Source: Geoalkalibacter sp. (GTDB lineage: Bacteria; Desulfobacterota; Desulfuromonadia; Desulfuromonadales; Geoalkalibacteraceae). Taken from it: DNA of 47,730 bases. Every line of letters starts with the position of its first letter. Within the stretch, counting starts at the first letter, position 1. The translations under genes were made by a program, and so were the position numbers. The notes below the pieces were generated by a model, which was not told the DNA's origin, ran no database searches, and was given only the letters and a program-made list of their open reading frames with translations. Location of the stretch: assembly GCF_030605225.1 (NCBI RefSeq), contig NZ_JAUWAV010000034.1, positions 1 to 47,730 on the forward strand, in the 5' to 3' direction. Shown in pieces: positions 4,254 through 47,730 of this stretch.

Positions 4254-4673
4254 GCAATCGGCGCACAGGCCGTAGAGTTCCAGACGATGGTCGATGATTT
4301 TAAAATCGTGGCGGCGCGCGACCTCATCCTGTAGGGTTTCGATGCGCGGATCCTCGAATTCAATGATGCGCTTGCACTTGGTGCAAATCAGGTGATCGTG
4401 GTGCTCGCCCCCCGTCACCGATTCATACCGGGTCTGCCCATCGCCGAAATTGTGCTCGGAGGCGATGCCGCATTCGCTAAAAAGCTTCAGGGTGCGATAG
4501 ACCGTGGCGTAGCCGATGTGCGGATGTGTTTGACGAATGCGCAGATAGAGTTCTTCGGTGGAGAGGTGCGAGCCGGCCCGCAGAAACTCATCGAGAATGA
4601 TGTCGCGCTGCTGAGTCGATTTCAGCCCCTTCTCGCTCAGGTAGCGGCGAAAGGTTTCACGGATTTTGCCCAA
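4242..4673 (-). CDS. fur: Fur-family ferric uptake regulator
   Basis: The 143-residue product has the Fur layout: a winged-helix DNA-binding domain (about 1-85, with 'IGYATVYRTLKLF') and a dimerisation domain with the metal-binding HHDH (91-94) and zinc-binding cysteine pairs CTKC (97-100) and CADC (137-140). It most likely acts as an Fe(II)-dependent repressor; Zur or PerR function is less likely beside feoB but cannot be excluded by sequence alone. The start is TTG at 4673, with AGGAGG five bases upstream. The gene is 86 bases downstream of ccdA on the same strand and ends in a terminator, so it may be transcribed alone. Its position beside feoB and a Fur-box-like site fits control of iron uptake. 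Confidence 0.93.
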   Translation of the reverse strand: MGKIRETFRRYLSEKGLKSTQQRDIILDEFLRAGSHLSTEELYLRIRQTHPHIGYATVYRTLKLFSECGIASEHNFGDGQTRYESVTGGEHHDHLICTKCKRIIEFEDPRIETLQDEVARRHDFKIIDHRLELYGLCADCRAS

Positions 4674-4759
4674 GGCGACCTCCTTCTGAAAACGAAATTC
4701 ATAGACGAATTCCGGGGCAAAGTCAAGGCCGGATTCATCGACGAGCGCGACGGAACCGA

Positions 4760-5509
4760 TCAGCCGAGAACCGGCAGCCAGCGATAGAGATAGCCGGTCA
4801 GATGGGTGAAAAGATTGAAGAATAGCATGATGCCAACCAGCATCAGCAACACGCCCGTGACAATTTCCATGATGCGGATGTGTTTCTTGAAGCGGTTGAA
4901 GAAGGAGAGAAAGCCGTGAAAGAGCAATCCGGAAACAAGAAAGGGAATGCCCAGGCCCGCCGAATAGGCCGAAAGCAGATAGATGCCGTTGCCCACGCCG
5001 CCGGTTGTGCTCGCCGCCAAGGCGAGAATGGCGCCGAGAATCGGGCCGATGCAGGGCGTCCAGCCGGCGGCGAAGGCAATGCCGACCAGCAGCGTGCCAA
5101 GGAATCCGCTCGGCTTGCTTTGCAGTTGCACCCGCTTCTCACCCAGCAGGATGCCGAAATGAAAAAGGCCGGACATATGCACCCCAAACAGAAAGATCAG
5201 CACCCCGCCGACCTTCTGAATGATGCCCAGGCCCTCGCGCAGATGGCTCTGGAAATTGTGGGAAGCCCAACCCGCCAAGCCGCCCAGGGTCACGAACACC
5301 AGGGAAAACCCGGCGATGAAGACCAAGGAATGAAACACCACCGCCAGCCGCACCTTGGTGCTGGGGTGAGCATCCTTGAGTTGACCGAAGGAGATGCCGG
5401 TGATGTAGGTCAGATAGGAGGGAATGAGGGGCAGCACGCAGGGAGAAAAAAAGGACAGAATCCCCGCCGAAAAGGCGATCCAGAAAGTGATGTTGGCCCC
5501 ACTCTCCAT
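4760..5509 (-). CDS. ccdA: Cytochrome c biogenesis / thiol-electron transporter CcdA
   Basis: CcdA moves reducing equivalents from cytoplasmic thioredoxin across the inner membrane to periplasmic thioredoxin-like proteins, which keep apocytochrome CXXCH cysteines reduced. The 249-residue product has about six hydrophobic helices and the paired redox cysteines in 'FFSPCVLPLIPS' (Cys24) and 'GWTPCIGPIL' (near residue 155), both beside prolines as in DsbD and CcdA. It lies nine bases downstream of a TlpA-like thioredoxin gene, its likely redox partner. The pair suits an organism that makes many multihaem cytochromes, as the right end of the window indicates. Confidence 0.93.
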   Translation of the reverse strand: MESGANITFWIAFSAGILSFFSPCVLPLIPSYLTYITGISFGQLKDAHPSTKVRLAVVFHSLVFIAGFSLVFVTLGGLAGWASHNFQSHLREGLGIIQKVGGVLIFLFGVHMSGLFHFGILLGEKRVQLQSKPSGFLGTLLVGIAFAAGWTPCIGPILGAILALAASTTGGVGNGIYLLSAYSAGLGIPFLVSGLLFHGFLSFFNRFKKHIRIMEIVTGVLLMLVGIMLFFNLFTHLTGYLYRWLPVLG

Positions 5510-5518
5510 GAATCGTCC

Positions 5519-6055
5519 CTATTCTCCGAGCAGCTTGGCGATATAGGCCTGAGTTTTGGGATCGGACCAGTCCCGCGCGCCGATCACATGATCCACGACG
5601 ATGCCGTTGCGATCAATGATGAAGCTCTCGGGAAAACGGTAGACGTGGTAGAGGTTCTGCACCTGACCTTGGGCGTCGATGGGAATGGGAAAGGAATAGG
5701 GCGTTCTTTTCAGGTAGGACTCCAGTGCCTGACGGGCGTCCTCCTCGACGTTGACGGCCAGCAAAACGAAGTCACCGCGCTCGGCGAATTTTTGGTAGAG
5801 ATTTTCCATGGTGGGCTTTTCCGTGCGACAGGGCGGACACCAGGTCGCCCAGAAATTGATCAGCACGACCTTGCCGCGCAGATGGGACAGGGTGACGGAG
5901 CCGCCATCATAGGTCGGCAGGGTAAAATCGGGAGCGACCGTGCCCACGCGCACGCTGGAAACCGGCGGCGCATCGGGCCGGGGAGAACCGGCCAAGGCCT
6001 CAAGGGAGCCGGAAAGGATCGCCAGGGCAACGAGAACCGCAAGAAATCGACGCAT
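5519..6055 (-). CDS. TlpA/ResA-like periplasmic thioredoxin
   Basis: The 178-residue product has an N-terminal hydrophobic signal (residues 1-22, cleavage near 'ALAG') and a thioredoxin fold of the AhpC/TSA-Redoxin type with the active site WCPPC (Cys73 and Cys76) and a cis-proline segment 'RFPESFIID'. Proteins of this type reduce disulfides in the periplasm, commonly those of apocytochrome c, using electrons delivered by CcdA. The gene sits directly upstream of ccdA with a nine-base gap. I use the ATG at 6055, preceded by GAAAGGAC about seven bases upstream. Whether it is ResA-like or a general reductant cannot be settled here. Confidence 0.9.
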   Translation of the reverse strand: MRRFLAVLVALAILSGSLEALAGSPRPDAPPVSSVRVGTVAPDFTLPTYDGGSVTLSHLRGKVVLINFWATWCPPCRTEKPTMENLYQKFAERGDFVLLAVNVEEDARQALESYLKRTPYSFPIPIDAQGQVQNLYHVYRFPESFIIDRNGIVVDHVIGARDWSDPKTQAYIAKLLGE

Positions 6056-6118
6056 GAAAAAAGTCCTTTCGTCAAAATATTCCAGTTTTTATATATTTAC
6101 TTGCTCGACAGGGCAAAG

Positions 6119-6514
6119 TCAAGGACCGTCTGCCTTCTCCTCCCAGAGCTGTTCGATCAGGTCCATTTCTTCCTCGGAAAATCCGAAATAATGCGCCAGT
6201 TCATGCATCACCGTTTCCCGCAGCACCCGCGCCAGCGGCAGGCCGGTTTCATCGACGTAATTTTCCACCGCCCGCTGATAGATGAGGATGAGATCCGGGG
6301 GGCAACTGCCGTAATCGTTGGTGCGCTCGGGCAGTGGCCAGCCCATGTAGTAGCCGAGCAGATCGCGGGGATCTTCCAGTCCCACCGCTTCCAGGGTGTC
6401 GGCGTCGGCCCAGTCGTGCACCTGAAAGGAGAGGTTTTCCACGCGGTCGAGAAATTCTCGGGGAATGGCGGCGATGGCCCGTTCGACCTGCTCCTCGAAT
6501 TCGCGCCGCGTCAT
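6119..6514 (-). CDS. Small zinc metallopeptidase-family protein (DUF1025 type)
   Basis: The 131-residue cytoplasmic protein carries 'HELAHYFGFSEEEM' at 104-117: a zinc-binding HExxH (His104, Glu105, His108) followed by Gly111 and acidic residues, as in the compact zincins of the DUF1025/possible-Zn-metallopeptidase family. The N-terminal half, with 'AIPREFLDRVEN', is typical of the family. No signal peptide is visible. Its start overlaps the stop of the upstream thioesterase gene by four bases (ATGA), so the two are translationally coupled. The natural substrate is unknown for the family. It lies 63 bases upstream of the TlpA-like gene. Confidence 0.85.
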   Translation of the reverse strand: MTRREFEEQVERAIAAIPREFLDRVENLSFQVHDWADADTLEAVGLEDPRDLLGYYMGWPLPERTNDYGSCPPDLILIYQRAVENYVDETGLPLARVLRETVMHELAHYFGFSEEEMDLIEQLWEEKADGP

Positions 6515-6975
6515 GCGTCGAACCCCTGTCCCCGCGCCACGCGAAAGACCGATTGAAAACGCGCGACCTCGCGCCCCTGGTCATCGGTCAGCACCGCTTC
6601 GCCGAAAAAAGTGCGGCCCTGGGGGCCGTGCACCTCGGCGCGGGCCGTCACCATACCTTCACGCACCGGAGCGAGAAATTTCATGCTGAGCTCGGTGGTG
6701 GCGAATTGGGTACCGGGGGGCAACAGGCTTTTGATGGCCATGGCCACCGCCGTATCCGCCAGGGACGTCAGGGCGCCGCCATGCATCAGCCCGCCGCCCT
6801 GAGCCAGCTTGACGGTAAAAGGCAGGGTCAGAAGAGCGCGACCGTCCCGTGCCTCCGCGATGCGCAGCCCGATGAATTCCTCGAAGGGCGCCGTGTCGAT
6901 CCACCCCTCCATGACAAAGGGGCGCTCACCCTCGGCCCGCATGGGCTGATCGCCGTCCACCAGCAGTCGCGACAT
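6511..6975 (-). CDS. PaaI-family hotdog thioesterase
   Basis: The 154-residue product is a single hotdog domain: 'GGGLMHGGALTSLADTAVAMA' carries the usual HGG and the acidic residue of the long helix, followed by the strands 'TTELSMKFLAPVREG' and 'TARAEVHGPQGRTFFGEAVL'. Such proteins hydrolyse acyl-CoA or aryl-CoA esters in the cytoplasm; the acyl group is not predictable here. I start at ATG 6975, where AAAGGAG is eight bases upstream, rather than at the in-frame GTG at 6984 that abuts the ribosome-binding site. It lies 14 bases downstream of the sigma-54 regulator gene and overlaps the metallopeptidase gene. Confidence 0.88.
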   Translation of the reverse strand: MSRLLVDGDQPMRAEGERPFVMEGWIDTAPFEEFIGLRIAEARDGRALLTLPFTVKLAQGGGLMHGGALTSLADTAVAMAIKSLLPPGTQFATTELSMKFLAPVREGMVTARAEVHGPQGRTFFGEAVLTDDQGREVARFQSVFRVARGQGFDA

Positions 6976-6989
6976 CCTCGACACTCCTT

Positions 6990-8339
6990 TTACTTGCGAA
7001 TTCCGTATTTTTCCATGCGATAGATCAGGGTGTGGCGCGGAATGCGTAAAAAAGCCGCGGCGCGGGTCTGGTTGCCGCCGCTGCGCCGCAGGGCTTCGAG
7101 CACCGCTTCCTTTTCCAGATCCTCCAGGGCATAGCCCTCGTCGGGCAGGTCCAGAACACGCCGCTGAGACGAGCGGGAGAGCGGGCCGCCCATGGGGCGA
7201 AAATCAACCTCATCGAGGCTCTCGCCGCGCCGCAGAATCAGCATGCGCTCCACGCAGTTCTCCAGTTCGCGGACATTTCCGGGCCAGTGATGTTCGGCCA
7301 GTCGCCGCAACAAAGCATCGCTGACGCGTATGGTTTCGCCGCCGTGCTTTTTAACGAAATGCCGCACCAGCACCGGAATATCCTCCAGCCGCTCGCGCAG
7401 GGCGGGCAGATACACGGGAATCACCGCCAGGCGGTAATAGAGATCCTCGCGGAACTGCCCCGCCGCCACCGCCTCCTCGAGATTGCGGTTGGTCGCCGCG
7501 ACCACCCGCACGTCGACTTTTTGCGTGCTGCCGCCGACCGGCTCGATTTCGCGCTCTTGCAAGGCGCGCAGCAATTTGGGTTGGAGGTCGGCCGGCAGTT
7601 CGCCGACCTCATCGAGAAACAGGGTGCCGCCGTCGGCCTGGGCGAATTTGCCGGCCCGATCACGCACCGCGCCGGTGAAGGCACCGCGCACGTGGCCGAA
7701 GAGTTCGCTCTCCAGCAGTTCGCGCGGGATGGCGGCGCAATTGACCGGCACGAACGCTTCGCCGCCGCGCTCGCTGCCGTGATGGATGGCCCGCGCCACC
7801 AGCTCCTTGCCCGTACCGCTCTCGCCGAGCAGCAGTACCGTGGCTTCCGTGGCCGCCACGCGCCGCACCAGATCGAACACCTGCTGCATCTTTTCGGAAA
7901 TGCCCACCAGGGACGAGAAATCGATGCGCTCGCTCAAGCGCTCCTTGAGCCGGCTGTTTTCTTCCTGCAAACCGCGAAAGGCCAGGGCCTTGGCGACCAC
8001 CAGGCGCAATTCGTCCCGACCGAAGGGTTTGGTCAGATAATCGTAGGCGCCCAGCTTCATGGCCTCGACGGCCTTTTCCACCGACCCGAAAGCGGTGATC
8101 ACGATGACCAGCGCCTCCGGCCGCTCCTGCTTGATCGCCTTGAGCACCTCATAGCCGGACATCCCGGGCATGGCGATATCGGTGATCACCAGCGGCGGAT
8201 TCTCGCGGCGGAACAACTCCAGGCCGGCGCTGCCGTCGGCGGCGGTCAGAACGCGATAGCCGGATTCTTCCAGGGAAAATTCCAGAACACGGCGCAGGGA
8301 CACATCATCTTCGATAATCAGGACAGAAGCCTTGGCCAA
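6990..8339 (-). CDS. NtrC-family sigma-54-dependent response regulator
   Basis: The 449-residue product has a receiver domain (phosphoacceptor Asp54 in 'VITDIAMPG', Lys104), a AAA+ domain with Walker A 'GESGTGKE' and the sigma-54 contact loop GAFTGA, and a C-terminal Fis-type helix-turn-helix ending '[17 protein letters not shown]'. It would activate sigma-54 promoters after phosphorylation by the kinase encoded immediately upstream; the gap is three bases. The start is TTG 8339, with GGGAG six bases upstream overlapping the kinase stop. The target genes are not evident. The AtoC/ZraR-like layout with a membrane kinase suggests a response to an envelope or extracellular signal, which is inference. 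Confidence 0.95.
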
Positions 8340-8342
8340 GGG

Positions 8343-9455
8343 TCACTCCCGGGAAGAATCCGCCGCGTCGGCGCGCGGCAGGATCAGGGTAAAGGTGGTG
8401 CCTTCGCCCGGACGGCTGGCAACGCGAATTTCACCGCCGTTGCGCCGCACGATGCGCTGGGTGATGGCAAGCCCCAGACCGACGCCGTCAGGGCGGGTGG
8501 TATAAAAGGGCGAAAAAATCCGCTCCAGGTTGTCCGCGGCGATGCCCGGCCCGTCGTCGCTGAACGTCAGATGCAGATGCGGCCCTTCGCGCTGCGCGCC
8601 GACCCGCAGGGATCCGCCGCGCGGCATGGCCTGGATCGCGTTGAGCACCAGATTGAGAAAGGCCTGCTTGAGCTGATCGGCGTCGCCCGCCACCCGCACC
8701 GCCGTGCCCTCCAGCATCAGCCGGACCCCGGATTTCTGGGCCTGGCGCTCGACCAGGCGAAATACCTCGCCCAGCACCTCGAAGGGGTCGAAGGTTCCTT
8801 TTTCCGCGCGTCCGGGACGGGCGAACTGCAGAAAATTCTCGACCACTCCGTTCAGGCGGGCCACCTCCTTGAGCAGGATCTGGGCGAATTCATAGCGCCG
8901 ATCGGCGGGATCCATGCCGTCCTGCAGAATTTCGGCGGTGCCGCGAATGGAGCCCAGGGGGTTGCGGATCTCATGGGCGAGTTCGGCGGAGAGCTCGCCG
9001 AGGGCACTCAAGCGATCGGCGCGGCGCAACTGATCTTCGATTTCGAGAATCTGGTCGGCCTGCTCGCGCAGCTTGACATAGCTTTCCTCGAGCCGCTCGG
9101 CGGTCTGCTGATAGCGGGTTTTCTGCAATCGCTCGCGCTGTGTGAGAAACCCGGTGATGAAGCCTATGACGTTGTAGAGCAGGATTTCCAGATACTGCTC
9201 GGGTTCGCTGCCGGGATGATGGCCCCACTGAAAAAGCACATGGGGCGCGTAGATCATGGAGATCAGGATGGCCGTGGCCACCCCGCCGCGCAGCATGAAC
9301 CACAGCCCGCCCAGAACCACCGGCAGGTAGTAGAGGCGGCGATAGATGTCATGATAATGCACCTTGTCGATGGCCGTGAGGTAATGCAGGGCGGTGATCA
9401 CCGCGATCATCCCCACCAGAATCGCCAGGCGAATTTTATGGCCGTTGCTGGGCAT
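8343..9455 (-). CDS. Membrane-bound sensor histidine kinase
   Basis: The 370-residue product has an N-terminal membrane region of about four hydrophobic helices (residues 8-105) with little periplasmic sequence, a coiled-coil linker (about 106-148), a HisKA domain with His161 in 'AHEIRNPLGSI', and a complete HATPase domain (N box 'NLVLNAIQAM', G1 'DDGPGIA', F box 'IFSPFYTT', G2 'GVGLGLA'). This is the NtrB/ZraS-like class that pairs with sigma-54 response regulators, here encoded three bases downstream. The signal is unknown; the lack of a large periplasmic domain suggests sensing in or at the membrane. The gene is divergent from the AEC transporter gene, and the 116-base gap holds promoters for both directions. 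Confidence 0.94.
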   Translation of the reverse strand: MPSNGHKIRLAILVGMIAVITALHYLTAIDKVHYHDIYRRLYYLPVVLGGLWFMLRGGVATAILISMIYAPHVLFQWGHHPGSEPEQYLEILLYNVIGFITGFLTQRERLQKTRYQQTAERLEESYVKLREQADQILEIEDQLRRADRLSALGELSAELAHEIRNPLGSIRGTAEILQDGMDPADRRYEFAQILLKEVARLNGVVENFLQFARPGRAEKGTFDPFEVLGEVFRLVERQAQKSGVRLMLEGTAVRVAGDADQLKQAFLNLVLNAIQAMPRGGSLRVGAQREGPHLHLTFSDDGPGIAADNLERIFSPFYTTRPDGVGLGLAITQRIVRRNGGEIRVASRPGEGTTFTLILPRADAADSSRE

Positions 9456-9520
9456 AGTGATTTTTTACTCGGACACCCGGGCCGACCGCAACCCTTATTT
9501 TGCCCATTAGGGTTTAAATG

Positions 9521-9549
9521 TTGGACACTTGCAAAGGGGCTGCTGTATT
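9521..9549 (+). promoter_or_regulatory. Candidate sigma-70 promoter for the AEC transporter gene
   Basis: TTGGAC (9521-9526) and TGTATT (9544-9549) are separated by 17 bases and lie 23 bases before the start codon. The -35 is good and the -10 moderate. Assigned by eye. Confidence 0.35.
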
Positions 9550-9571
9550 CTTTGGCGGCCTGGAGGATTGG

Positions 9572-10516
9572 ATGACTTTGTTTTTCGACATTCTCACCAT
9601 CGTCATTCCGGTTTTTCTCATCATCGCCCTGGGATACGGCCTGCGCCGCGCCGCGCTCATCGACAACCATTTTCTTTTTCAGACCAACCGACTGGTCTAT
9701 TTCGTCGCCCTGCCCCTGCTGCTGTTCTACGAAATCGGCCGCGCCGATTTCGTCGCCAACTTCAACCCCGCCCTGGTGGCCGGCTCATCCCTCGCCATTG
9801 CCCTAGGATTTGCCCTGTCCTACGGCTACGCCGCCTTGCGCGGTTATCCTCCCGCCGCGCGGGGCGCCTTCAGCCAGGGGGCGTTTCGCGGCAATCTGGC
9901 CTACGTGGGGCTAGCCATCGTCTTCAATGCCTACGGTAGCGAAGGACTCACGCGTGCCGGCATTCTCATGGGCTTTCTCGTACCGGTCCTCAATTTCTTC
10001 GCCATCCTCGCACTGCTGCTGCCCCATCATGGCACGAGCGGCAATCAGGGTGCACGCTTCTGGCTGCGGCAATTGCTGCTCAACCCGCTGATCCTTGCCT
10101 CTTTCGCAGGCATCGCCTGGAGTTTCCTGCACCTGCCCATGCCACTCATTCTCGAGCGCACCCTGCGCATCGCCACGGGCATGAGCCTGCCCCTGGCCCT
10201 GCTCGCCATCGGCGGCTCCTTCGCCCTCGACAGGCTGCGCGGCGACCTGCTGCGGGCCTTTCTCGCCGCGGGCATCAAGCTGGTATGGCTGCCCCTGCTG
10301 GCCGGAGGCATCCTGCTGCTGTTCGGAGTTCGCGGAGAGGATCTGGCCATCGGCGTGCTCTTTGCCGCCACCCCGGCGGCAACCGCGACCTACATCATGG
10401 CCCATCAGATGAAAGGCGACGCGGAACTGGCCGGCGCCATCGTCATGCTCTCGACGCTGCTCTCCGCCCTCACCTATACGCTGACCCTGTATATCCTGCG
10501 GAGTTCGGGGCTATGA
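9572..10516 (+). CDS. AEC-family (auxin efflux carrier-like) transporter
   Basis: The 314-residue product is almost entirely hydrophobic with about ten predicted membrane helices in two repeats, beginning 'MTLFFDILTIVIPVFLIIAL' and ending with 'TPAATATYIMAHQMKGD', a conserved segment of the AEC family. Bacterial AEC proteins export or import small organic anions such as malate or malonate; no substrate can be assigned here. The start is the ATG at 9572 with GGAGG five bases upstream, not the upstream in-frame ATG at 9518. The stop overlaps the glycosyltransferase start by four bases (ATGA), so the two genes are translationally coupled. Confidence 0.9.
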   Translation: MTLFFDILTIVIPVFLIIALGYGLRRAALIDNHFLFQTNRLVYFVALPLLLFYEIGRADFVANFNPALVAGSSLAIALGFALSYGYAALRGYPPAARGAFSQGAFRGNLAYVGLAIVFNAYGSEGLTRAGILMGFLVPVLNFFAILALLLPHHGTSGNQGARFWLRQLLLNPLILASFAGIAWSFLHLPMPLILERTLRIATGMSLPLALLAIGGSFALDRLRGDLLRAFLAAGIKLVWLPLLAGGILLLFGVRGEDLAIGVLFAATPAATATYIMAHQMKGDAELAGAIVMLSTLLSALTYTLTLYILRSSGL

Positions 10517-11520
10517 GACGACCCGCAGTCTCCATCCTGCTCGCGGTGCGCAACGAGCAGCGCCACCTGCCGGCGGCTCTGGCCTCCCTGCAGGCCCAGA
10601 CCCTGCGCAACTGGGAGCTGATCGCGGTCAACGACGGCTCGCGCGACCGCACCGGCGCCATTTTGCGCCAAGCCGCCCGCAACGACCCACGCATCCGGGT
10701 TTTCGACCGACCTGGGCGAGGCCTGGTCGCCGCCCTCAATTTTGGCCTGAGACACTGTCGCGCTCCGCTGATTGCCCGCATGGACGGCGATGATCGCTGC
10801 CACCCTTGGCGCCTGGAACTGCAGGCGCGCTTCCTGCGCCTCCATCCCCGGATCGGTCTGGTCGCCACCGCGGTGAGGCATTTTCCCGCCTGGCGCATCA
10901 AGGAAGGCCTGCGCGCCTACCAGGAGTGGCAAAACGCCCTGCGCCGGCCCGAGGAGATCCGGCGGGATCTCTACGTCGAATCGCCCTTCGCCCACCCCAG
11001 CGTGATGCTGCGCCGCGATATTTTGCTGCGGGCGGGAGGCTACCAGGAGCGCCCCTGGGCCGAGGATTACGATCTGTGGCTGCGCCTGGCCCGCGCCGGG
11101 GTGCGCTTTGCGCGGCTACCGCAGGTCCTGCTTGATTGGCGCGACCGCCCGCAACGCCTGACCCGAACCGCGCCCACCTGCACGGCCGCGGCCTTTCGCG
11201 CCTGCAAGATCCATCACCTCCAGCAGGATTTTCTGCACCAGGTCGGCGAGGTCAGCCTGTGGGGCGCGGGCCTGGAAGGCAAGGCCTGGCGCAAGGCCCT
11301 CGCCGAGGCGGGCATCGCCGTCACGCGCTGGCTGGACGTCGATCCGCGAAAAATCGGCCAGCGCATTCACGGCGCGCCCGTGCACTCCATCGACACACTG
11401 CAACCGGATGGCCCGCCGGTTCTCGTCACCATCGGCGCCCGCGGCGCCCGGCCCCAGGTGCGTGCCTGGGCACGCCAAAGGAATCTGCGCGAGGGCCAAG
11501 ATTTTCTGATCGTCACCTGA
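10513..11520 (+). CDS. Family 2 glycosyltransferase with a C-terminal Rossmann-like domain
   Basis: The 335-residue product starts with a GT-A fold family 2 domain (about 1-235): 'VSILLAVRNEQ', nucleotide-binding 'VNDGSRDRTG', the DxD-type 'MDGDD', and the acceptor-side 'AEDYDLWLRLA'. Residues about 245-335 form a separate segment starting 'VSLWGAGLEGKAW', a GxGxxG-like nucleotide-binding turn, followed by 'LDVDPRKIGQRIHG' and 'VLVTIGARGAR'. That pattern resembles the small Rossmann-like domains seen at the ends of sugar C-methyltransferases and acyltransferases; the resemblance is by eye. No membrane helix is present. It overlaps the AEC transporter gene by four bases. The acceptor is unknown. 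Confidence 0.9.
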   Translation: MRRPAVSILLAVRNEQRHLPAALASLQAQTLRNWELIAVNDGSRDRTGAILRQAARNDPRIRVFDRPGRGLVAALNFGLRHCRAPLIARMDGDDRCHPWRLELQARFLRLHPRIGLVATAVRHFPAWRIKEGLRAYQEWQNALRRPEEIRRDLYVESPFAHPSVMLRRDILLRAGGYQERPWAEDYDLWLRLARAGVRFARLPQVLLDWRDRPQRLTRTAPTCTAAAFRACKIHHLQQDFLHQVGEVSLWGAGLEGKAWRKALAEAGIAVTRWLDVDPRKIGQRIHGAPVHSIDTLQPDGPPVLVTIGARGARPQVRAWARQRNLREGQDFLIVT

Positions 11521-11537
11521 ACCCAAGGAGGGAAATG

Positions 11538-12167
11538 ATGAGTGAAAATCCCCAATCACACAGCCCCGATCAGCATCTCTCCAGCTACCCTTCCTTCACC
11601 ATCGGCGAGCGTTTTCGCATTCTGGCTCCCGAGGATCAGGCGCCGCGCGACGAGCGCATCAATCTGATCCTCGCCAAGGGGGCCTTTGGTTCGGGGGAGC
11701 ACGAAACCAGCGCCAGCTGCCTGGAAATACTCGAAGAGCTGCCGCAGGTCCGCAACGCCCGGGTTCTCGACCTGGGCAGCGGCACCGGCATCCTCGCCCT
11801 TGCGGCGCTCAAGCTCGGGGCGGCAAGCGCGGTGTGCATCGACATCAATCCCGCCGCCGTGCGTACCTGTGAGCGCAATTGCGCCCTCAACGGGCTGAGC
11901 GGGCGCGTGCGCAACATCACCGGCAGCCTTGAGAGTCTTGGCGAAGGTGATTTCGACCTGGTGCTCGCCAACATCTACGGCGATCTGCTCATCGATTTTG
12001 CCCCCGGGCTGGTCGAGCGTACCCGGACGGGCGGATTGCTGCTGCTTTCGGGCATCCTTTGGGCCTACAACTACGATGTGCGCAGCGGCTACGAGCGGCT
12101 GGGCTGCAAGGTTCTTAAGAACCACATGCTGGAGGAATTCAGCACCGTCCTGCTGCAAAAAGGCTGA
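11538..12167 (+). CDS. Short PrmA-like SAM-dependent methyltransferase
   Basis: The 209-residue product matches the catalytic half of ribosomal protein L11 methyltransferase PrmA: 'GAFGSGEHETS' (48-58) in place of PrmA's G-x-F-G-T-G-x-H-x-T-T, SAM motif I 'VLDLGSGTGI' (76-85), 'CIDINPAAV', and 'LVLANIYGDLL', which mirrors the D-L-V-x-A-N-I motif. It lacks the roughly 90-residue N-terminal substrate-recognition domain of true PrmA, so L11 may not be its target. AGGAGG is six bases upstream of ATG 11538, the second of two adjacent ATGs. It follows the glycosyltransferase gene by 17 bases, and its stop lies within a terminator used by the convergent valS. Confidence 0.85.
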   Translation: MSENPQSHSPDQHLSSYPSFTIGERFRILAPEDQAPRDERINLILAKGAFGSGEHETSASCLEILEELPQVRNARVLDLGSGTGILALAALKLGAASAVCIDINPAAVRTCERNCALNGLSGRVRNITGSLESLGEGDFDLVLANIYGDLLIDFAPGLVERTRTGGLLLLSGILWAYNYDVRSGYERLGCKVLKNHMLEEFSTVLLQKG

Positions 12168-12197
12168 AAAACTAAGGGCGCCCCGCAGGACGCCCTT
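12167..12197 (-). terminator. Intrinsic terminator of valS
   Basis: On the minus strand AAGGGCG and CGCCCTT pair around a 10-base loop and are followed by AG and five T residues. It lies 30 bases past the valS stop and touches the stop codon of the convergent methyltransferase gene. Confidence 0.65.
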
Positions 12198-12226
12198 GCT
12201 TGTCGATGAGTTGGGTTTCGTATCGG

Positions 12227-14884
12227 CTATTTCCAGCTTTGGATGAGCGTGAGACTGCGCTCCAGGATGGCCAGCTTTTCTTGCGCCTCGGCCAGCTTGC
12301 CGCGATCTTTTTCGAGCACCTCGGCGGGGGCGTTGGCGACAAACTTCTCGTTGGAGAGCTTCTTGGCGAAAAAGTCCACGTCCTTTTGCACCTTGGCGAT
12401 TTCCTTGTGCAACCGTTTTTCTTCTTCGTCCACATCGATAAGCCCCGCCATGGGCAGCAGGACCTCGACCTCCCCCGCCACCTGGGTCGCCGCCTTGTCG
12501 GGGCGTGCGATGCCGACCCCGTAACAAAGTTCGCCAAGCCCCGCCAGGGTGCGGATGGCGGTCTCGCCCTCGGCGACCATGGCAGCCGCGGCCGCGCCCT
12601 TGCAGTCGAGCACCGCGCTGATTTTGCGCCCCGGCGCCACGTCCATTTCGCCGCGGATGTTGCGGATGGCGCGAACCACCTCCATGATCGCCTCCATGCG
12701 CGCGGCGCCCTCCGCATTTTCCGGCAGGCCCTCGCCGAGAGGATAGGCCGCCTCCATCAAAAAGCGGCTCGGCCGCTTGCCCGGCAGGGACTGCCAGATT
12801 TCCTCGGTGATGAAGGGCATGAGCGGATGCAGCAGACGCAGCAGCTGCTCAAGAACCGTGAAAAGGACCGTCTGCGCCCGGACCCGGCGCGCCGCATCAC
12901 CGCCGTAGAGATCGTCCTTGATCAACTCGATATACCAGTCGCAGAAACAGTTCCAGGTAAAGGCATAGAGCGTGTTGGCCGCCTCGTTGAAGCGATAACC
13001 GTTGAGCGCCTTGTTGGCGGCGCGCGCCGCTTCGGCCAGACGCACCAGAATCCACTGATCGGCCAGGGACAGCTCCTCGACCTTGAGGGAGCTTTGCGCG
13101 GGATCGAAATCTTCCAGATTCATCAAGGCAAAACGCGCCGCGTTCCACAGCTTGTTGGCAAAGGCCTTGTAGCCCGCGATGCGCTCCGTCGCCAGCTTGA
13201 TGTCACGACCCATGGCGGCAAAGGCGGCCAGGGTGAAGCGAAAGGCATCGGCGCCGTATTCGTCGATGACGCCCAGAGGATCAATGACGTTGCCTTTGCT
13301 CTTGCTCATTTTCTGCCCCTGGGCGTCGCGCACCAGGGCGTGGATGTAGACCTCGCGAAAGGGCACCTCGCCCATGAACTTGAGGCCCATCATCAGCATG
13401 CGCGCGACCCAGAAAAACAAAATGTCGAAGCCCGTCACCAGGCAGGAGGTCGGGTAGAACTTGCGCAGGGTTTCGGTGTCCTGGGGCCAGCCCATGGTGG
13501 AAAAAGGCCAGAGCGCCGAGGAAAACCAGGTGTCGAGGACATCGCTTTCCTGGCGGATCTGGGCGCTGCCGCAATGGGCGCAGGCGCTGAGATCCTCGCG
13601 GGACACGCTGATCTGATCGCAGGCGTCGCAGAACCAGGCGGGGATGCGATGGCCCCACCAGATCTGGCGGCTGATGCACCAGTCCTGAATGTTGAACATC
13701 CATTCGAAATAGGTTTTTTCCCACTGCGCGGGCACGATACGCGTGTCGCCCTGCTGCACCGCCTTGATGGCCTGCTCGGCCAAGGGCGCGACTTTCACAT
13801 ACCACTGCTTGCTCAGATAAGGCTCTATGATGGTTTTGCAGCGGTAGCACTCGCCCACCGCGAGTTTGTGGTCTTCGATGCGCGCGAGCAAACCCTGGGC
13901 TTCGAGATCCGCGACCACGGCCTTGCGTGCCGCGCTGCGGGCCTGACCCTGATAGGGTCCGCCATTTTCATTGACGTGCCCTGATTCATCGAAGATGTTG
14001 ATGAATTCAAGCTGATGGCGCTTGCCGATCTCGAAATCGTTGAAGTCGTGAGCGGGCGTGATTTTCACCGCGCCGCTGCCGAATTGGGGGTCGACGTATT
14101 CATCGGCGATGATGGGGATTTCGCGATGGATTAGGGGTAGCAGCACGCTTTTGCCGATCAGGTCGCGGTAGCGCTCGTCCTCGGGATGCACCGCCACGGC
14201 GGTGTCGCCGAGCATGGTTTCCGGACGGGTGGTGGCCACCACGATGTGGCGATCCAAACCCTTCACCGGATAGCGCATGTGCCAGAGATGGCTTTTCTTC
14301 TCGTCATGCTCCACCTCCAGGTCGGAAAGGGCGGTGTGACAGCGCGGGCACCAGTTGATGAGGCGGTTGTCGCGATAAATCAGGCCTTCCTCGTAGAGCC
14401 TTACGAACACTTCGCGCACGGCCTGGGAAAGCCCTTCGTCCATGGTGAAGCGCTCGCGCTGCCAGTCGCAGGAGGCGCCCAAGCGCTTGAGCTGATTGAT
14501 GATCTGCCCACCCGACTCCTCGCGCCATTGCCAAACCCGCGCGACGAATTCCTCGCGTCCCAGTTCGTGACGATCCTTGCCCTGGGCGGCCAGTTGCTTT
14601 TCCACCACGTTCTGCGTTGCGATGCCCGCATGATCGGTGCCGGGCATCCACAGCACCTCGTGGCCGGTCATGCGCTTCCAGCGCGCGAGGATGTCCTGAA
14701 GGGTGTTGTTGAGGGCGTGTCCCATATGCAGGACACCCGTGACGTTGGGGGGGGGAATGACGATGGAATAATGGGGCTTGGGCGAGTTTTCGTCGGCGTG
14801 AAAACAGCCGCTTGCCTCCCACCGGCGATACCATTTGTCTTCCACCTGGGCAGGCTCGTATCCTTTGGGCAGCTTGGGTTCCAT
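12227..14884 (-). CDS. valS: Valine-tRNA ligase
   Basis: ValRS charges tRNA-Val with valine in the cytoplasm. The 885-residue product has the class I signature HMGH (53-56), the KMSKS loop in 'QKMSKSKGNVIDP', the editing (CP1) domain with 'TTRPETMLGDTAVAVHP', the valyl-specific 'GTDHAGIATQ', a zinc-finger-like CxxC pair in the middle ('CDAC' and 'CAHC'), an anticodon-binding domain and the C-terminal coiled-coil arm. The length is normal for the bacterial enzyme. The gene stands alone: a terminator of the upstream response-regulator gene lies 76 bases before the start, and it has its own terminator. I saw no T-box-like leader. Confidence 0.98.
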   Translation of the reverse strand: MEPKLPKGYEPAQVEDKWYRRWEASGCFHADENSPKPHYSIVIPPPNVTGVLHMGHALNNTLQDILARWKRMTGHEVLWMPGTDHAGIATQNVVEKQLAAQGKDRHELGREEFVARVWQWREESGGQIINQLKRLGASCDWQRERFTMDEGLSQAVREVFVRLYEEGLIYRDNRLINWCPRCHTALSDLEVEHDEKKSHLWHMRYPVKGLDRHIVVATTRPETMLGDTAVAVHPEDERYRDLIGKSVLLPLIHREIPIIADEYVDPQFGSGAVKITPAHDFNDFEIGKRHQLEFINIFDESGHVNENGGPYQGQARSAARKAVVADLEAQGLLARIEDHKLAVGECYRCKTIIEPYLSKQWYVKVAPLAEQAIKAVQQGDTRIVPAQWEKTYFEWMFNIQDWCISRQIWWGHRIPAWFCDACDQISVSREDLSACAHCGSAQIRQESDVLDTWFSSALWPFSTMGWPQDTETLRKFYPTSCLVTGFDILFFWVARMLMMGLKFMGEVPFREVYIHALVRDAQGQKMSKSKGNVIDPLGVIDEYGADAFRFTLAAFAAMGRDIKLATERIAGYKAFANKLWNAARFALMNLEDFDPAQSSLKVEELSLADQWILVRLAEAARAANKALNGYRFNEAANTLYAFTWNCFCDWYIELIKDDLYGGDAARRVRAQTVLFTVLEQLLRLLHPLMPFITEEIWQSLPGKRPSRFLMEAAYPLGEGLPENAEGAARMEAIMEVVRAIRNIRGEMDVAPGRKISAVLDCKGAAAAAMVAEGETAIRTLAGLGELCYGVGIARPDKAATQVAGEVEVLLPMAGLIDVDEEEKRLHKEIAKVQKDVDFFAKKLSNEKFVANAPAEVLEKDRGKLAEAQEKLAILERSLTLIQSWK

Positions 14885-45213: not shown

Positions 45214-46488
45214 ATGATCGCCGTTCATGGGCGCGGGCTCTTGCTGGTTGTCCTTGCGCTTTCCCTGCTATTTTTCATAGCTTTCCCCGGCTCGGGCTTC
45301 AGCGCGGATCTGCGCCTGACGTCCGACACGATCCTCCAATCCTTCAAGCGCGACCTGCCGGGTGAACCTGACCGCAAGGTCGCCCCCGTTTACGAATATC
45401 TCCAGGTCGATTACGGCAAAAAGGAAGAAGCCGGCCTTTCCTTTCACGGTTACGGGTGGATGCGCATCAACCTCGGCGACGACTATTTCGACGATACCAC
45501 CGAGGCCGAACTCTTGTACGCCTATTTGGAATACGATACGCCCACCCAGGAGTTCCTGGTACGCGCCGGGCGCTTTTATGTCTTTGAGGGCGTTGCCAAC
45601 GAAGCGGTGGATGGCGTTTATGGACGCAAACACCTGCCCAACAACATCACCCTGAGCGCCTATGCCGGGCAACCCGCCGCCCTCGCGAACACCAACGGCC
45701 GCGCGGGCGACTACATTGTCGGCGGTCGCGTCTCCCATCACCACATCGGCCGCTACGAGTTCGGCGTCTCCTACAAAACCCTCGCCAACGACGGCGGCAA
45801 TGACGAGCAGTTCGCCGGCTTCGACGGCTATGTCTATCTTCCGGCCCGCATCTCCCTGCAGGGTACATCGGTTTATAATCTCAAGACCGACGGCTGGGCC
45901 GAACACTTCTACGAATTGCGCGTGCCCATGGGACCAGTCGAGGTGCGCCCCTTTTATCAGAAATACCGTTATGATGATTTCTTCGTGGATCAGGGCAGTT
46001 CCGCCTTTCCCTTCCGCTTTTTGGCCGGCACCGGCAACAGTTTGGAGGTCTTCGGCACCGAAGCCTACCTCTACCTGGATGAACGCTTCGAACTCGCGGG
46101 ACGCCTGAAACACTACGAATACGACCGGCGCGACGGCAGCGCCGATTACTACTCCCTGATTTCAACATGGAAAATTCAGATTCTCAGCCAGGTCGGCATC
46201 GAATTGGGCCGCATGGACGGCGATCAGGATCGCCATCGCTTTACCCTGGCGCGCGGCTTCTTTTACTGGGATGCCCGCCCCTGGTTCGTTTCGGGGGACG
46301 CCATGTTGGTCGACTACGACCGCCAGAAATTCGGCAAGGATCAGGCCTGGTTTGCCTCCCTGGGCTTCGGCCGGGGTTTTCTCGGGGAACGCCTGAAGCT
46401 GAAATTTTCCCTGGATTACAGCGACGACCCTTACCTGGATGATAACTTCCGCACAACGCTGGTTGCCCACTATCGCTACGGCCACTGA
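45214..46488 (+). CDS. Outer-membrane beta-barrel protein, putative porin of a cytochrome conduit
   Basis: The 424-residue product has a signal peptide (hydrophobic 8-28, cleavage near 'GFSA') and then mostly alternating polar/hydrophobic strands rich in Tyr, Phe, Gly and Asp, ending in aromatic strands 'TTLVAHYRYGH', as in outer-membrane barrels. No haem motif is present. Two c-type cytochrome lipoprotein genes follow at once. In Geobacter the Omb-Oma-Omc and Ext clusters combine such a barrel with periplasmic-side and surface cytochromes to pass electrons through the outer membrane; the same role is inferred here from order and composition. I do not recognise a specific named homologue. GGGGG lies six bases before the ATG. 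Confidence 0.78.
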   Translation: MIAVHGRGLLLVVLALSLLFFIAFPGSGFSADLRLTSDTILQSFKRDLPGEPDRKVAPVYEYLQVDYGKKEEAGLSFHGYGWMRINLGDDYFDDTTEAELLYAYLEYDTPTQEFLVRAGRFYVFEGVANEAVDGVYGRKHLPNNITLSAYAGQPAALANTNGRAGDYIVGGRVSHHHIGRYEFGVSYKTLANDGGNDEQFAGFDGYVYLPARISLQGTSVYNLKTDGWAEHFYELRVPMGPVEVRPFYQKYRYDDFFVDQGSSAFPFRFLAGTGNSLEVFGTEAYLYLDERFELAGRLKHYEYDRRDGSADYYSLISTWKIQILSQVGIELGRMDGDQDRHRFTLARGFFYWDARPWFVSGDAMLVDYDRQKFGKDQAWFASLGFGRGFLGERLKLKFSLDYSDDPYLDDNFRTTLVAHYRYGH

Positions 46489-46537
46489 GCGTTCAAGGCC
46501 CCGTTGACCCGGGCCGGTTTCTTCGGAGTATGATTGA

Positions 46538-47008
46538 ATGAATGCAAAAAAGTTTTTTTTGTTTGTGCTGTTGGGACTTTTTGCCGGCGTGCTGATTTCC
46601 TGTGTCGCGGGAAACGGCTATCGCCCCCCCAAAACACACCCACCCATCTATGAATTGGGCGAGCGCCGCGTCTACTGCGTACGCTGTCACGGGCATGAAA
46701 ACAAGGAAATGGTCTACGAGCGCTACAACCACACGCCCTTTTTCACCGACAACCATCGGCTCGTCACCTACCAGGACGAAGCCGTTTGCGCCATGTGCCA
46801 TGACCAGAGTTTTTGCAACAGTTGCCACGCCACCCGCGTCGAGCTCAAACCCTCGCTGCGCAACCAGACGGAAACCTTCCGCCGCACCCAGCATCGCGGC
46901 GACTATCTTTCGCGCCACCAAATCGACGGTCGCATCGACCCGACCTCGTGCTTTCGTTGTCACGGCAACCCGAAGGCATCGCAAACCTGCCGTCCCTGCC
47001 ACGGTTAA
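46538..47008 (+). CDS. Pentahaem c-type cytochrome lipoprotein
   Basis: The 156-residue product has a lipoprotein signal ending 'GVLISC' (lipidated Cys22) and five CXXCH haem-binding motifs: CVRCH (47-51), CAMCH (84-88), CNSCH (93-97), CFRCH (138-142) and CRPCH (151-155). Extra histidines (for example in 'NHTPFF', 'TQHRGDYLSRHQ') could be distal haem ligands. The density, five haems in about 135 mature residues, fits an electron-transfer protein rather than an enzyme. Lipid anchoring and the gene order after a barrel suggest the periplasmic-side partner of an outer-membrane conduit. GGAG lies nine bases before the ATG. The following cytochrome gene starts 18 bases after the stop. Confidence 0.9.
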   Translation: MNAKKFFLFVLLGLFAGVLISCVAGNGYRPPKTHPPIYELGERRVYCVRCHGHENKEMVYERYNHTPFFTDNHRLVTYQDEAVCAMCHDQSFCNSCHATRVELKPSLRNQTETFRRTQHRGDYLSRHQIDGRIDPTSCFRCHGNPKASQTCRPCHG

Positions 47009-47026
47009 CAGGGGGTGAGACCCATC

Positions 47027-47730
47027 ATGGATAAGAGGGGACTGAGATCACTGGCGGCGTTAAGCTTGGCTTTCTCGTTGCTCCTTTATGCCTGCGGCGG
47101 CGGCAGCGGCAACGAGGATGCGCCCACCGTGCGCAATGCCCATGAACCGGGCTGGCAGGTGGACCACAGTGCTACGGCCAGGGTCGCCCAGGCCAAGAAC
47201 GATTTCTCGGACTGCCAAGTCTGTCATCGCGCCGATCTCAACGGCGGCGGCGGGGTTCCGGGTTGTTTTGAGTGCCATACCGCCGGCGAACCTTTCTCCA
47301 ATTTCCATCGCAAGCAGCCCGGGTTCGAGCAGCTTGAGTGGGCCAATCCCCTCAACCACGGCTGGGCCGCCAAACAGAATCTACTTGCCTGCCAGGGTTG
47401 CCATGCCGAGCGTGGCGGTCCGGGCAGCAACCCCCGCTTCAATGTCACCTTGCGCAGCCTGGTCGGGGGGTGTGAAAGTGTGCTCTGTCATGGGGATAAA
47501 ACCAATATCTACACCGATCTGGTCGCAACGCCGCCTCGACAGCTAATTGACAACGTTGCCCACCCGACTTTTGCCGCCCACCCGGGTTCGAGCGCGCCGG
47601 ATAATTTCTGGTGGTTCGGGCAGCGCCTAGAATTTCCGGGCGGCATACAAGCCAAGCTCGGGCACTGGGATGTGCAGAACATGCAAGCCTGCACCCTCTG
47701 TCACGGAGTGCAAGGTTTGGGCGGTAGCGG
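47027..47730 (+). CDS. Multihaem c-type cytochrome lipoprotein with a CX4CH site, 3' end missing
   Basis: The frame opens at ATG 47027 and is still open at the window end, giving 234 visible residues. The signal ends 'LLLYAC' with the lipidated Cys23. Four standard haem motifs are visible, CQVCH (63-67), CFECH (80-84), CQGCH (122-126) and CTLCH (222-226), plus CESVLCH (149-155), a CX4CH site. The CX4CH-then-CXXCH arrangement matches the domain first noted in Geobacter sulfurreducens cytochromes. The unit CxxCH-x-GG-CxxCH at 63-84 seems to begin again at 222 ('CHGVQGLGGSG'), so more haems probably follow. It is likely the surface or outer-leaflet member of the conduit; that is inference. Confidence 0.88.
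   Translation, partial: MDKRGLRSLAALSLAFSLLLYACGGGSGNEDAPTVRNAHEPGWQVDHSATARVAQAKNDFSDCQVCHRADLNGGGGVPGCFECHTAGEPFSNFHRKQPGFEQLEWANPLNHGWAAKQNLLACQGCHAERGGPGSNPRFNVTLRSLVGGCESVLCHGDKTNIYTDLVATPPRQLIDNVAHPTFAAHPGSSAPDNFWWFGQRLEFPGGIQAKLGHWDVQNMQACTLCHGVQGLGGS

Follow-up and report, generated by a model that had tools for sequence, protein, structure and literature searches.

A probable ExtBC(D)-type porin-cytochrome conduit encoded at a contig end in Geoalkalibacter

Introduction

The closest described relatives of the locus analysed here are two four-gene porin-cytochrome clusters of Geobacter. ExtABCD (GSU2645-2642) consists of a 12-haem cytochrome (ExtA), a barrel (ExtB), a 5-haem lipoprotein (ExtC) and a 12-haem lipoprotein (ExtD), as described in a 2018 survey (PMC6148476), and ExtA is described elsewhere as a 32 kDa protein with 12 haems (PMC12977616). 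Gmet0825-0828 is given as a 12-haem protein, a porin, and proteins with 5 and 6 haems (PMC11389400). According to the respective reports, extABCD is required by G. sulfurreducens with electrodes and dispensable with Fe(III) oxide (PMC5585712), and deletion of Gmet0825-0828 stops anode reduction and stable co-cultures and alters the expression of many genes (PMC11389400). Here we analyse three adjacent genes for a barrel, a pentahaem lipoprotein and a larger multihaem lipoprotein at positions 45214 to 47730 of a 47,730-base stretch of Geoalkalibacter sp. DNA (hereafter the window; contig NZ_JAUWAV010000034.1 of assembly GCF_030605225.1). We consider it probable, at about 0.77, that they make up a compact operon-like unit encoding a porin-cytochrome conduit of ExtBC(D) type. 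The conduit is real and conserved, and it is of a kind already known from Geobacter and Desulfuromonas, not a new type.

Variation on the ExtABCD plan has been reported before. For Geoalkalibacter ferrihydriticus and Desulfuromonas soudanensis, the 2018 survey records extABC with a new cytochrome behind it; it also describes the replacement of ExtD by another cytochrome (Geoalkalibacter ferrihydriticus included), and in a footnote mentions extBCD loci without extA nearby (PMC6148476). For D. soudanensis WTL, the genome report counts only two conduit clusters (PMC4914508). A 2021 comparison lists extC in WTL, does not list WTL with extA, and records a complete extABCD in none of five strains (PMC8235581).

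Results

Three genes for a barrel and two lipoprotein cytochromes

A sequence-only reading of the window had described three open reading frames (ORFs) encoding a barrel, a 156-residue five-haem lipoprotein and a larger multihaem lipoprotein. All three are present:

45214-46488, + strand: predicted outer-membrane 22-strand beta-barrel with signal peptide, ExtB-type (ORF, model, fold matches and hhalign)
46538-47008, + strand: pentahaem lipoprotein cytochrome c, ExtC-type, 156 residues with five CXXCH motifs (20-sequence alignment; adjacency to a barrel in 48/48 places)
47027-47730, + strand: N-terminal part of a larger multihaem lipoprotein cytochrome in the ExtD position, with 4 CXXCH and 1 CX4CH; cut by the contig end

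The barrel gene runs from an ATG at 45214 to a stop at 46488 and encodes 424 residues. Its AlphaFold2 model, built on an alignment of 40 sequences (the window protein and 39 relatives), has a mean predicted local distance difference test score (pLDDT) of 90.2, with an N-terminal helix (residues 6-27) followed by 22 long strands between residues 33 and 422. The closed beta-barrel whose failure would have told against the sequence-only reading was thereby predicted successfully. The top fold matches among solved structures were TonB-dependent receptors, which are 22-stranded (Z 20.6, root-mean-square deviation 4.0, 342 residues); after structural alignment the first two rows had Z of about 20 over 342-363 residues. 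MtrB was not among the fold matches listed, which has no bearing on kinship to MtrB. Searches with the barrel gave no match in Pfam at 0.001, in NCBIfam at E values up to 1 or in phage records, and its profile matched none of the sequences of solved structures. Lumen-facing positions were more conserved than lipid-facing ones (0.67 vs 0.58, p 0.0008), a difference that we regard as weak because the faces were assigned by hydrophobicity alone.

Comparison of hidden Markov model profiles, as the sequence-only reading had proposed, linked the barrel to those of other conduit-like clusters. It scored 100% against four Geobacter-type barrels, whose cluster also holds a 5-haem and a multihaem gene, and 100% against five Geomonas-type barrels. 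Against a profile of eight OmbB-like barrels it scored 99.5% over the N-terminal half (hhalign), and single OmbB-like sequences gave 98.5 and 97.7%, compared with 0.1 and 0.4% for two unrelated porins, also used as single sequences. The labels ExtE and OmbB proper for the compared families derive from gene content, not from named sequences.

The pentahaem protein carries a lipobox whose Cys22 is invariant in 20/20 aligned sequences. That alignment has 35 invariant columns, among them Cys22 and 14 of the 15 Cys/Cys/His positions of the five CXXCH motifs; the fifteenth is nearly invariant. Searched by sequence against solved structures, the protein gave a weak match (E 0.0009) to a cytochrome c555 construct over a short haem stretch, and its relative at locus L057 matched the NCBIfam ExtM model below the cut-off. 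Its small size had been taken as a departure from the classical conduit. In the published descriptions a 5-haem protein is a regular part of both ExtABCD (ExtC) and Gmet0825-0828 (Gmet0827). ExtD, which had been named among the barrels to be compared, is given in the 2018 survey as a cytochrome, the barrel of ExtABCD being ExtB (PMC6148476).

The barrel and the pentahaem protein are conserved together

Barrel matches were found in 28 of 58 genomes, including its own: 22 at E 1e-76 or better and six weakly. The pentahaem profile matched 70 named loci and, in 277 genomes of the class, 51 places at E values up to 4e-61; weaker matches in these genomes include other haem proteins. We analysed 48 of the 51 places, leaving out G049:C144, G086:C42 and G210 (cut by contig end). 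In every one of the 48, which lie in 45 Desulfuromonadia genomes and were picked by the pentahaem protein alone, a barrel gene stands directly upstream. Five CXXCH motifs are present in 46 of the pentahaem proteins (one has four and one is cut), and a multihaem gene lies downstream in 46 modules, four of these genes being cut. A strict lipobox pattern missed 2/48 pentahaem proteins and 8/46 third genes, most of which have a looser lipobox by eye. Of the 70 named loci, one lacked a pentahaem ORF and eight lacked an upstream ORF of barrel size; L085, for which the wrong reading frame had been used, was excluded from set A4, as were the four rows of more distant families in A3. Some relatives found with the pentahaem profile are titled Desulfobulbaceae, Desulfobacterales, Desulfosarcinaceae or Deferrisomatales, and so by title fall outside Desulfuromonadia. 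Because barrel matches are this widespread and the adjacency is unbroken, chance is excluded as an explanation.

ExtA is linked to the module in a single barrel clade

A 12-haem cytochrome gene immediately precedes the barrel gene in 10 of the 48 modules. The resulting order of 12-haem, barrel, 5-haem and multihaem genes is the one published for ExtABCD and Gmet0825-0828. Eight of the ten also appear among the named loci, so that the two counts overlap. In these eight the upstream proteins have 290-330 residues, their genes end 1-102 bases before the barrel gene, and their motifs number 11 CXXCH and a single CXXXCH, except in one protein with 12 CXXCH. In a tree of 53 barrels built by maximum likelihood, the window barrel belongs to a clade of 18 rows (94/100) that holds all ten ExtA-linked modules and the five barrels of the window's own family; the bootstrap of 94 narrowly misses the program's mark of 95 for starred branches. 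This grouping runs counter to the earlier suggestion of a distinct conduit type, as do published accounts in which the lack of a linked ExtA and a variable third cytochrome are already described for the family (PMC6148476; PMC8235581). The three-gene core may be older than its linkage to ExtA. We regard that order of events as tentative, because the root was set for drawing only and the analysis warned of long branches meeting (outer rows, G035).

Neither the window nor the same-genus loci have a 12-haem gene immediately 5' of the barrel gene. The window's own genome (G000) does contain an unlinked ExtA-like gene, at G000:C7:55449-56216 (E 1e-113 with the ExtA profile), beside a second 12-haem gene (E 3e-50); no barrel was called there. 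Two tandem 12-haem cytochromes without a barrel (G000:C7:55449-57125), the second with a lipobox-like signal, occur likewise in G001, G003 and G005. In a tree of 49 12-haem proteins, the first C7 protein falls within a 27-row clade with the linked ExtA proteins (100/99) and the second outside it. Haem motifs divide the ExtA-like proteins in another way: 11 of 12 linked or contig-edge proteins have 11 CXXCH plus one CXXXCH, the unlinked ones have 12 CXXCH, and both kinds are present in G033 and G206. ExtA-like proteins matched the NCBIfam model for the DmsE-family decahaem cytochrome below the cut-off; the C7 protein scored 33 bits (cut-off 192), a likeness that is consistent with, and no proof of, a role as a periplasmic wire. 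In G236 and G210 an ExtA-like gene lies on another contig, near an end, and was not counted as linked. G018 and G051, each a single contig and at least 99% complete, gave no ExtA-like match at 1e-10 genome-wide.

The third gene and the contig boundary

The third gene, which probably starts at an ATG at 47027 and has the lipobox LLYAC, had been described as running off the window. The gene is indeed cut, and the boundary is the true end of contig C34: the window is the entire contig, one of 89 in a genome of 3.7 Mb. Contig C132 of G002 ends (31772) at the same base as the window (47730), inside the same gene. The last 171 bases of the window are single-copy in G000, so we found no repeat to account for the break, and a search of the same genome for the missing 3' part returned just weak matches in other frames. 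Reading on past 47730 was achieved through a relative: in G001, of the same genus, the third gene is complete and encodes 407 residues with nine CXXCH and one CX4CH, about 61% identical to the window protein over 207 shared residues.

Across the modules, the third gene has 4-9 CXXCH motifs where ExtA is linked (10 modules) and 5-23 elsewhere (32 complete modules; Mann-Whitney p 0.0004). This comparison leaves out four cut and two absent third genes; since every ORF was extended to its first start codon, the lengths are upper bounds. We considered whether a large third cytochrome substitutes for ExtA and do not claim it as the cause, since the linked and unlinked groups also belong to different clades. 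At L037, L042, L073 and L110-L117, a 10-haem lipoprotein-like protein that by eye recalls the OmcA/MtrC family adjoins the module.

Genomic setting

The gene 5' of the barrel in the window is a Xan_ur_permease (Pfam) on the same strand. It is present in G004 and was not called in G001 or G003, where the genes 3' of the module lie on the opposite strand and were read as transport genes. On these grounds we take the unit to be three genes. The same opposite-strand genes tell, in G001 and G003, against the downstream inner-membrane or soluble enzyme complex that would have undone the conduit reading. A promoter scan found 0 sites against 1.0 expected, and terminator-like sites numbered six against 3.5 expected. 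The window pentahaem is 100% identical to one on a contig of the metagenome-assembled genome Geoalkalibacter sp. CSMAG_1185.

Discussion

The barrel model, the two lipoprotein cytochromes, the fact that the three genes are conserved together and their relatedness to published conduits all back the conduit reading first made from the window's letters. The scheme we propose follows the porin-cytochrome conduit model as outlined in PMC4245776. The ExtB-type 22-strand barrel would lie in the outer membrane, and the lipid-anchored ExtC-type pentahaem would dock to it or inside it, receive electrons from periplasmic cytochromes and convey them through the barrel, with or without a 12-haem partner. 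From the pentahaem they would pass to the third protein of the unit, the lipid-anchored multihaem cytochrome at the ExtD position, which would sit on the outer face and may reduce extracellular acceptors such as Fe(III)/Mn(IV) minerals, electrodes or partner cells. A periplasmic 12-haem ExtA would either be supplied by the unlinked C7 gene or be dispensed with.

Several observations weigh against this scheme. For 38 of the 48 modules, several of them near contig ends, the 6 kb upstream, or the sequence as far as the contig end, showed no ExtA, which makes ExtABCD a poor name for most of the family. The C7 protein may be a co-opted paralogue and not an ExtA that has moved, given that its motif make-up differs from that of linked ExtA and that G033 and G206 carry both kinds. 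Kinship to ExtABCD is read from gene order, the tree and published descriptions. Reference sequences of G. sulfurreducens for a direct comparison with ExtB and ExtC were not found among the genomes searched: an identical PilA was sought in the 277 genomes without success (best 87%), none of the 70 pentahaem-profile loci is titled G. sulfurreducens or G. metallireducens, and an ExtN-model query of control genomes gave no match. At face value, the survey's extABC for D. soudanensis and Geoalkalibacter ferrihydriticus does not agree with the lack of an ExtA match in G018, presumably the D. soudanensis WTL genome, and with the solely unlinked ExtA in Geoalkalibacter; its extBCD footnote may explain this. 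Complex formation, topology, the direction of electron flow and the acceptor are features that we infer. Finally, genes read by eye as hydrogenase genes immediately precede the module in G049.

This last setting bears on a first rival, that the locus is an ExtEFG-type conduit (barrel, 5-haem lipoprotein and 12-haem cytochrome), for the survey associates ExtEFG with a Hox hydrogenase and gives it the identical order of barrel, 5-haem and multihaem proteins, with no ExtA (PMC6148476). Set against these likenesses are the window barrel's clade, which takes in every one of the ten modules that have a 12-haem gene upstream, the nine CXXCH motifs of the third gene in G001, and the survey's naming of D. 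soudanensis as a holder of extABC (PMC6148476); the YedY homologue and Hox hydrogenase expected downstream of ExtEFG are absent from G001 and G003, where opposite-strand transport-like genes follow instead. We therefore hold ExtEFG to be improbable. We give as little credence to a separate conduit type in which the pentahaem is an in-barrel wire with no ExtA partner whatsoever. The many modules with no ExtA in view, the two single-contig genomes G018 and G051, and the restriction of linked ExtA to one barrel clade would all suit it, but the clade in question is the window's own, the same genome has an ExtA-like 12-haem gene, and extBCD loci without ExtA are already mentioned in the 2018 survey (PMC6148476).

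That the barrel is an ordinary porin beside two cytochromes that work elsewhere is very improbable. Its fold is common to many outer-membrane receptors and porins, and the barrel of L057 weakly matches the NCBIfam Opr porin model (21 bits, cut-off 100). Against this stand the unbroken barrel/pentahaem adjacency at places chosen by the pentahaem alone and a barrel profile that matches OmbB-like barrels, not the two unrelated porins. The preferred reading thus remains an ExtBC(D)-type conduit. A bolder proposal, which we judge unlikely but worth stating, is that the barrel and the lipidated pentahaem (about 134 residues) are the ancestral and sufficient trans-membrane unit of the conduit family: the pentahaem would fill the barrel like the plug of a TonB receptor and serve as the wire, with ExtA added in one clade and its linkage lost again in Geoalkalibacter. 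If this were true, the Omb, Ext and Geomonas-type barrels would share one origin.

Placing the locus among ExtBC(D)-type conduits assigns a barrel with no Pfam or NCBIfam match to a family in which the member from G. sulfurreducens is required for electrode growth. With ExtA linkage seen in just 10/48 modules, the question is sharpened to whether the lipidated pentahaem alone carries electrons through the barrel or a 12-haem protein is recruited from elsewhere.

Comparison with known systems

MtrCAB of Shewanella works similarly in outline. It differs in its barrel, since MtrB/MtoB is predicted to have 28 strands (PMC4245776) as opposed to 22 here, and the three-gene unit has no Pfam family for its barrel at 0.001 and no decahaem MtrA gene. 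ExtHIJKL, with its rhodanese lipoprotein, ExtI barrel and divergent LysR gene upstream, is likewise a poor fit: the upstream gene in the window is the same-strand permease, and the NCBIfam search of the barrel gave no ExtI match, the presence of an ExtI model in that library being unconfirmed.

OmbB-OmaB-OmcB shares with the module the logic of a barrel plus a lipoprotein cytochrome, and its barrel is homologous over the N-terminal half. It differs in its 8-haem periplasmic cytochrome, which is lacking in the module, where the middle gene encodes five CXXCH motifs and a lipobox. Elsewhere in the window's genome, G000:C55 (L192, about 4600-12500 of the reversed stretch) holds an OmbB-OmaB-OmcB-like conduit of a barrel, an about 10-haem protein and a 15-haem lipoprotein, preceded by another 10-haem gene. 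In L191 (G001) and L194 (G005), a gene for a Y1_Tnp transposase that carries a DnaA-type helix-turn-helix domain is found downstream of the Omb-like cluster; in L192 the ORF in a comparable position gave no Pfam match. A related cluster of barrel, 5-haem and 17-19-haem genes occurs at L178, L183 and L185 (Geobacter-group), and in L178 and L183 the gene before it was interpreted as encoding 2-isopropylmalate or citramalate synthase. An Omb-like cluster in G257 (L188) adjoins a similar gene.

The clusters of D. soudanensis WTL resemble the window module more closely. G018, which we take to be this strain, has two modules of the same barrel and pentahaem families, without a linked ExtA; their barrels are 45 and 47% identical to that of the window and their pentahaems 54 and 55%. 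With no ExtA-like match at 1e-10 in the genome, G018 agrees with the two clusters counted in the genome report and with the 2021 listing of extC, not extA, for WTL (PMC4914508; PMC8235581), which favours the ExtBC(D) reading. Presuming that G018 is WTL, their relative positions would make them DSOUD_0702-0705 and DSOUD_2909-2915. They differ from the window module in their larger third cytochromes, with 13 and 19 CXXCH motifs.

Set beside ExtABCD and Gmet0825-0828, the window module lacks an adjacent ExtA, and its third cytochrome, judged from the complete copy in G001 (nine CXXCH and one CX4CH; the window copy is cut), differs from the 12 haems of ExtD and the 6 of Gmet0828. Since both an upstream ExtA and a 12-haem ExtD were looked for and not found, we class the module as ExtBC(D)-type with no ExtA linked to it and do not call it a full ExtABCD. 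With both systems it shares a barrel (ExtB), followed by an adjacent 5-haem lipoprotein (ExtC) and then a multihaem lipoprotein; its barrel belongs to the clade of ExtA-linked barrels, and its close relatives carry a 12-haem ExtA directly upstream.

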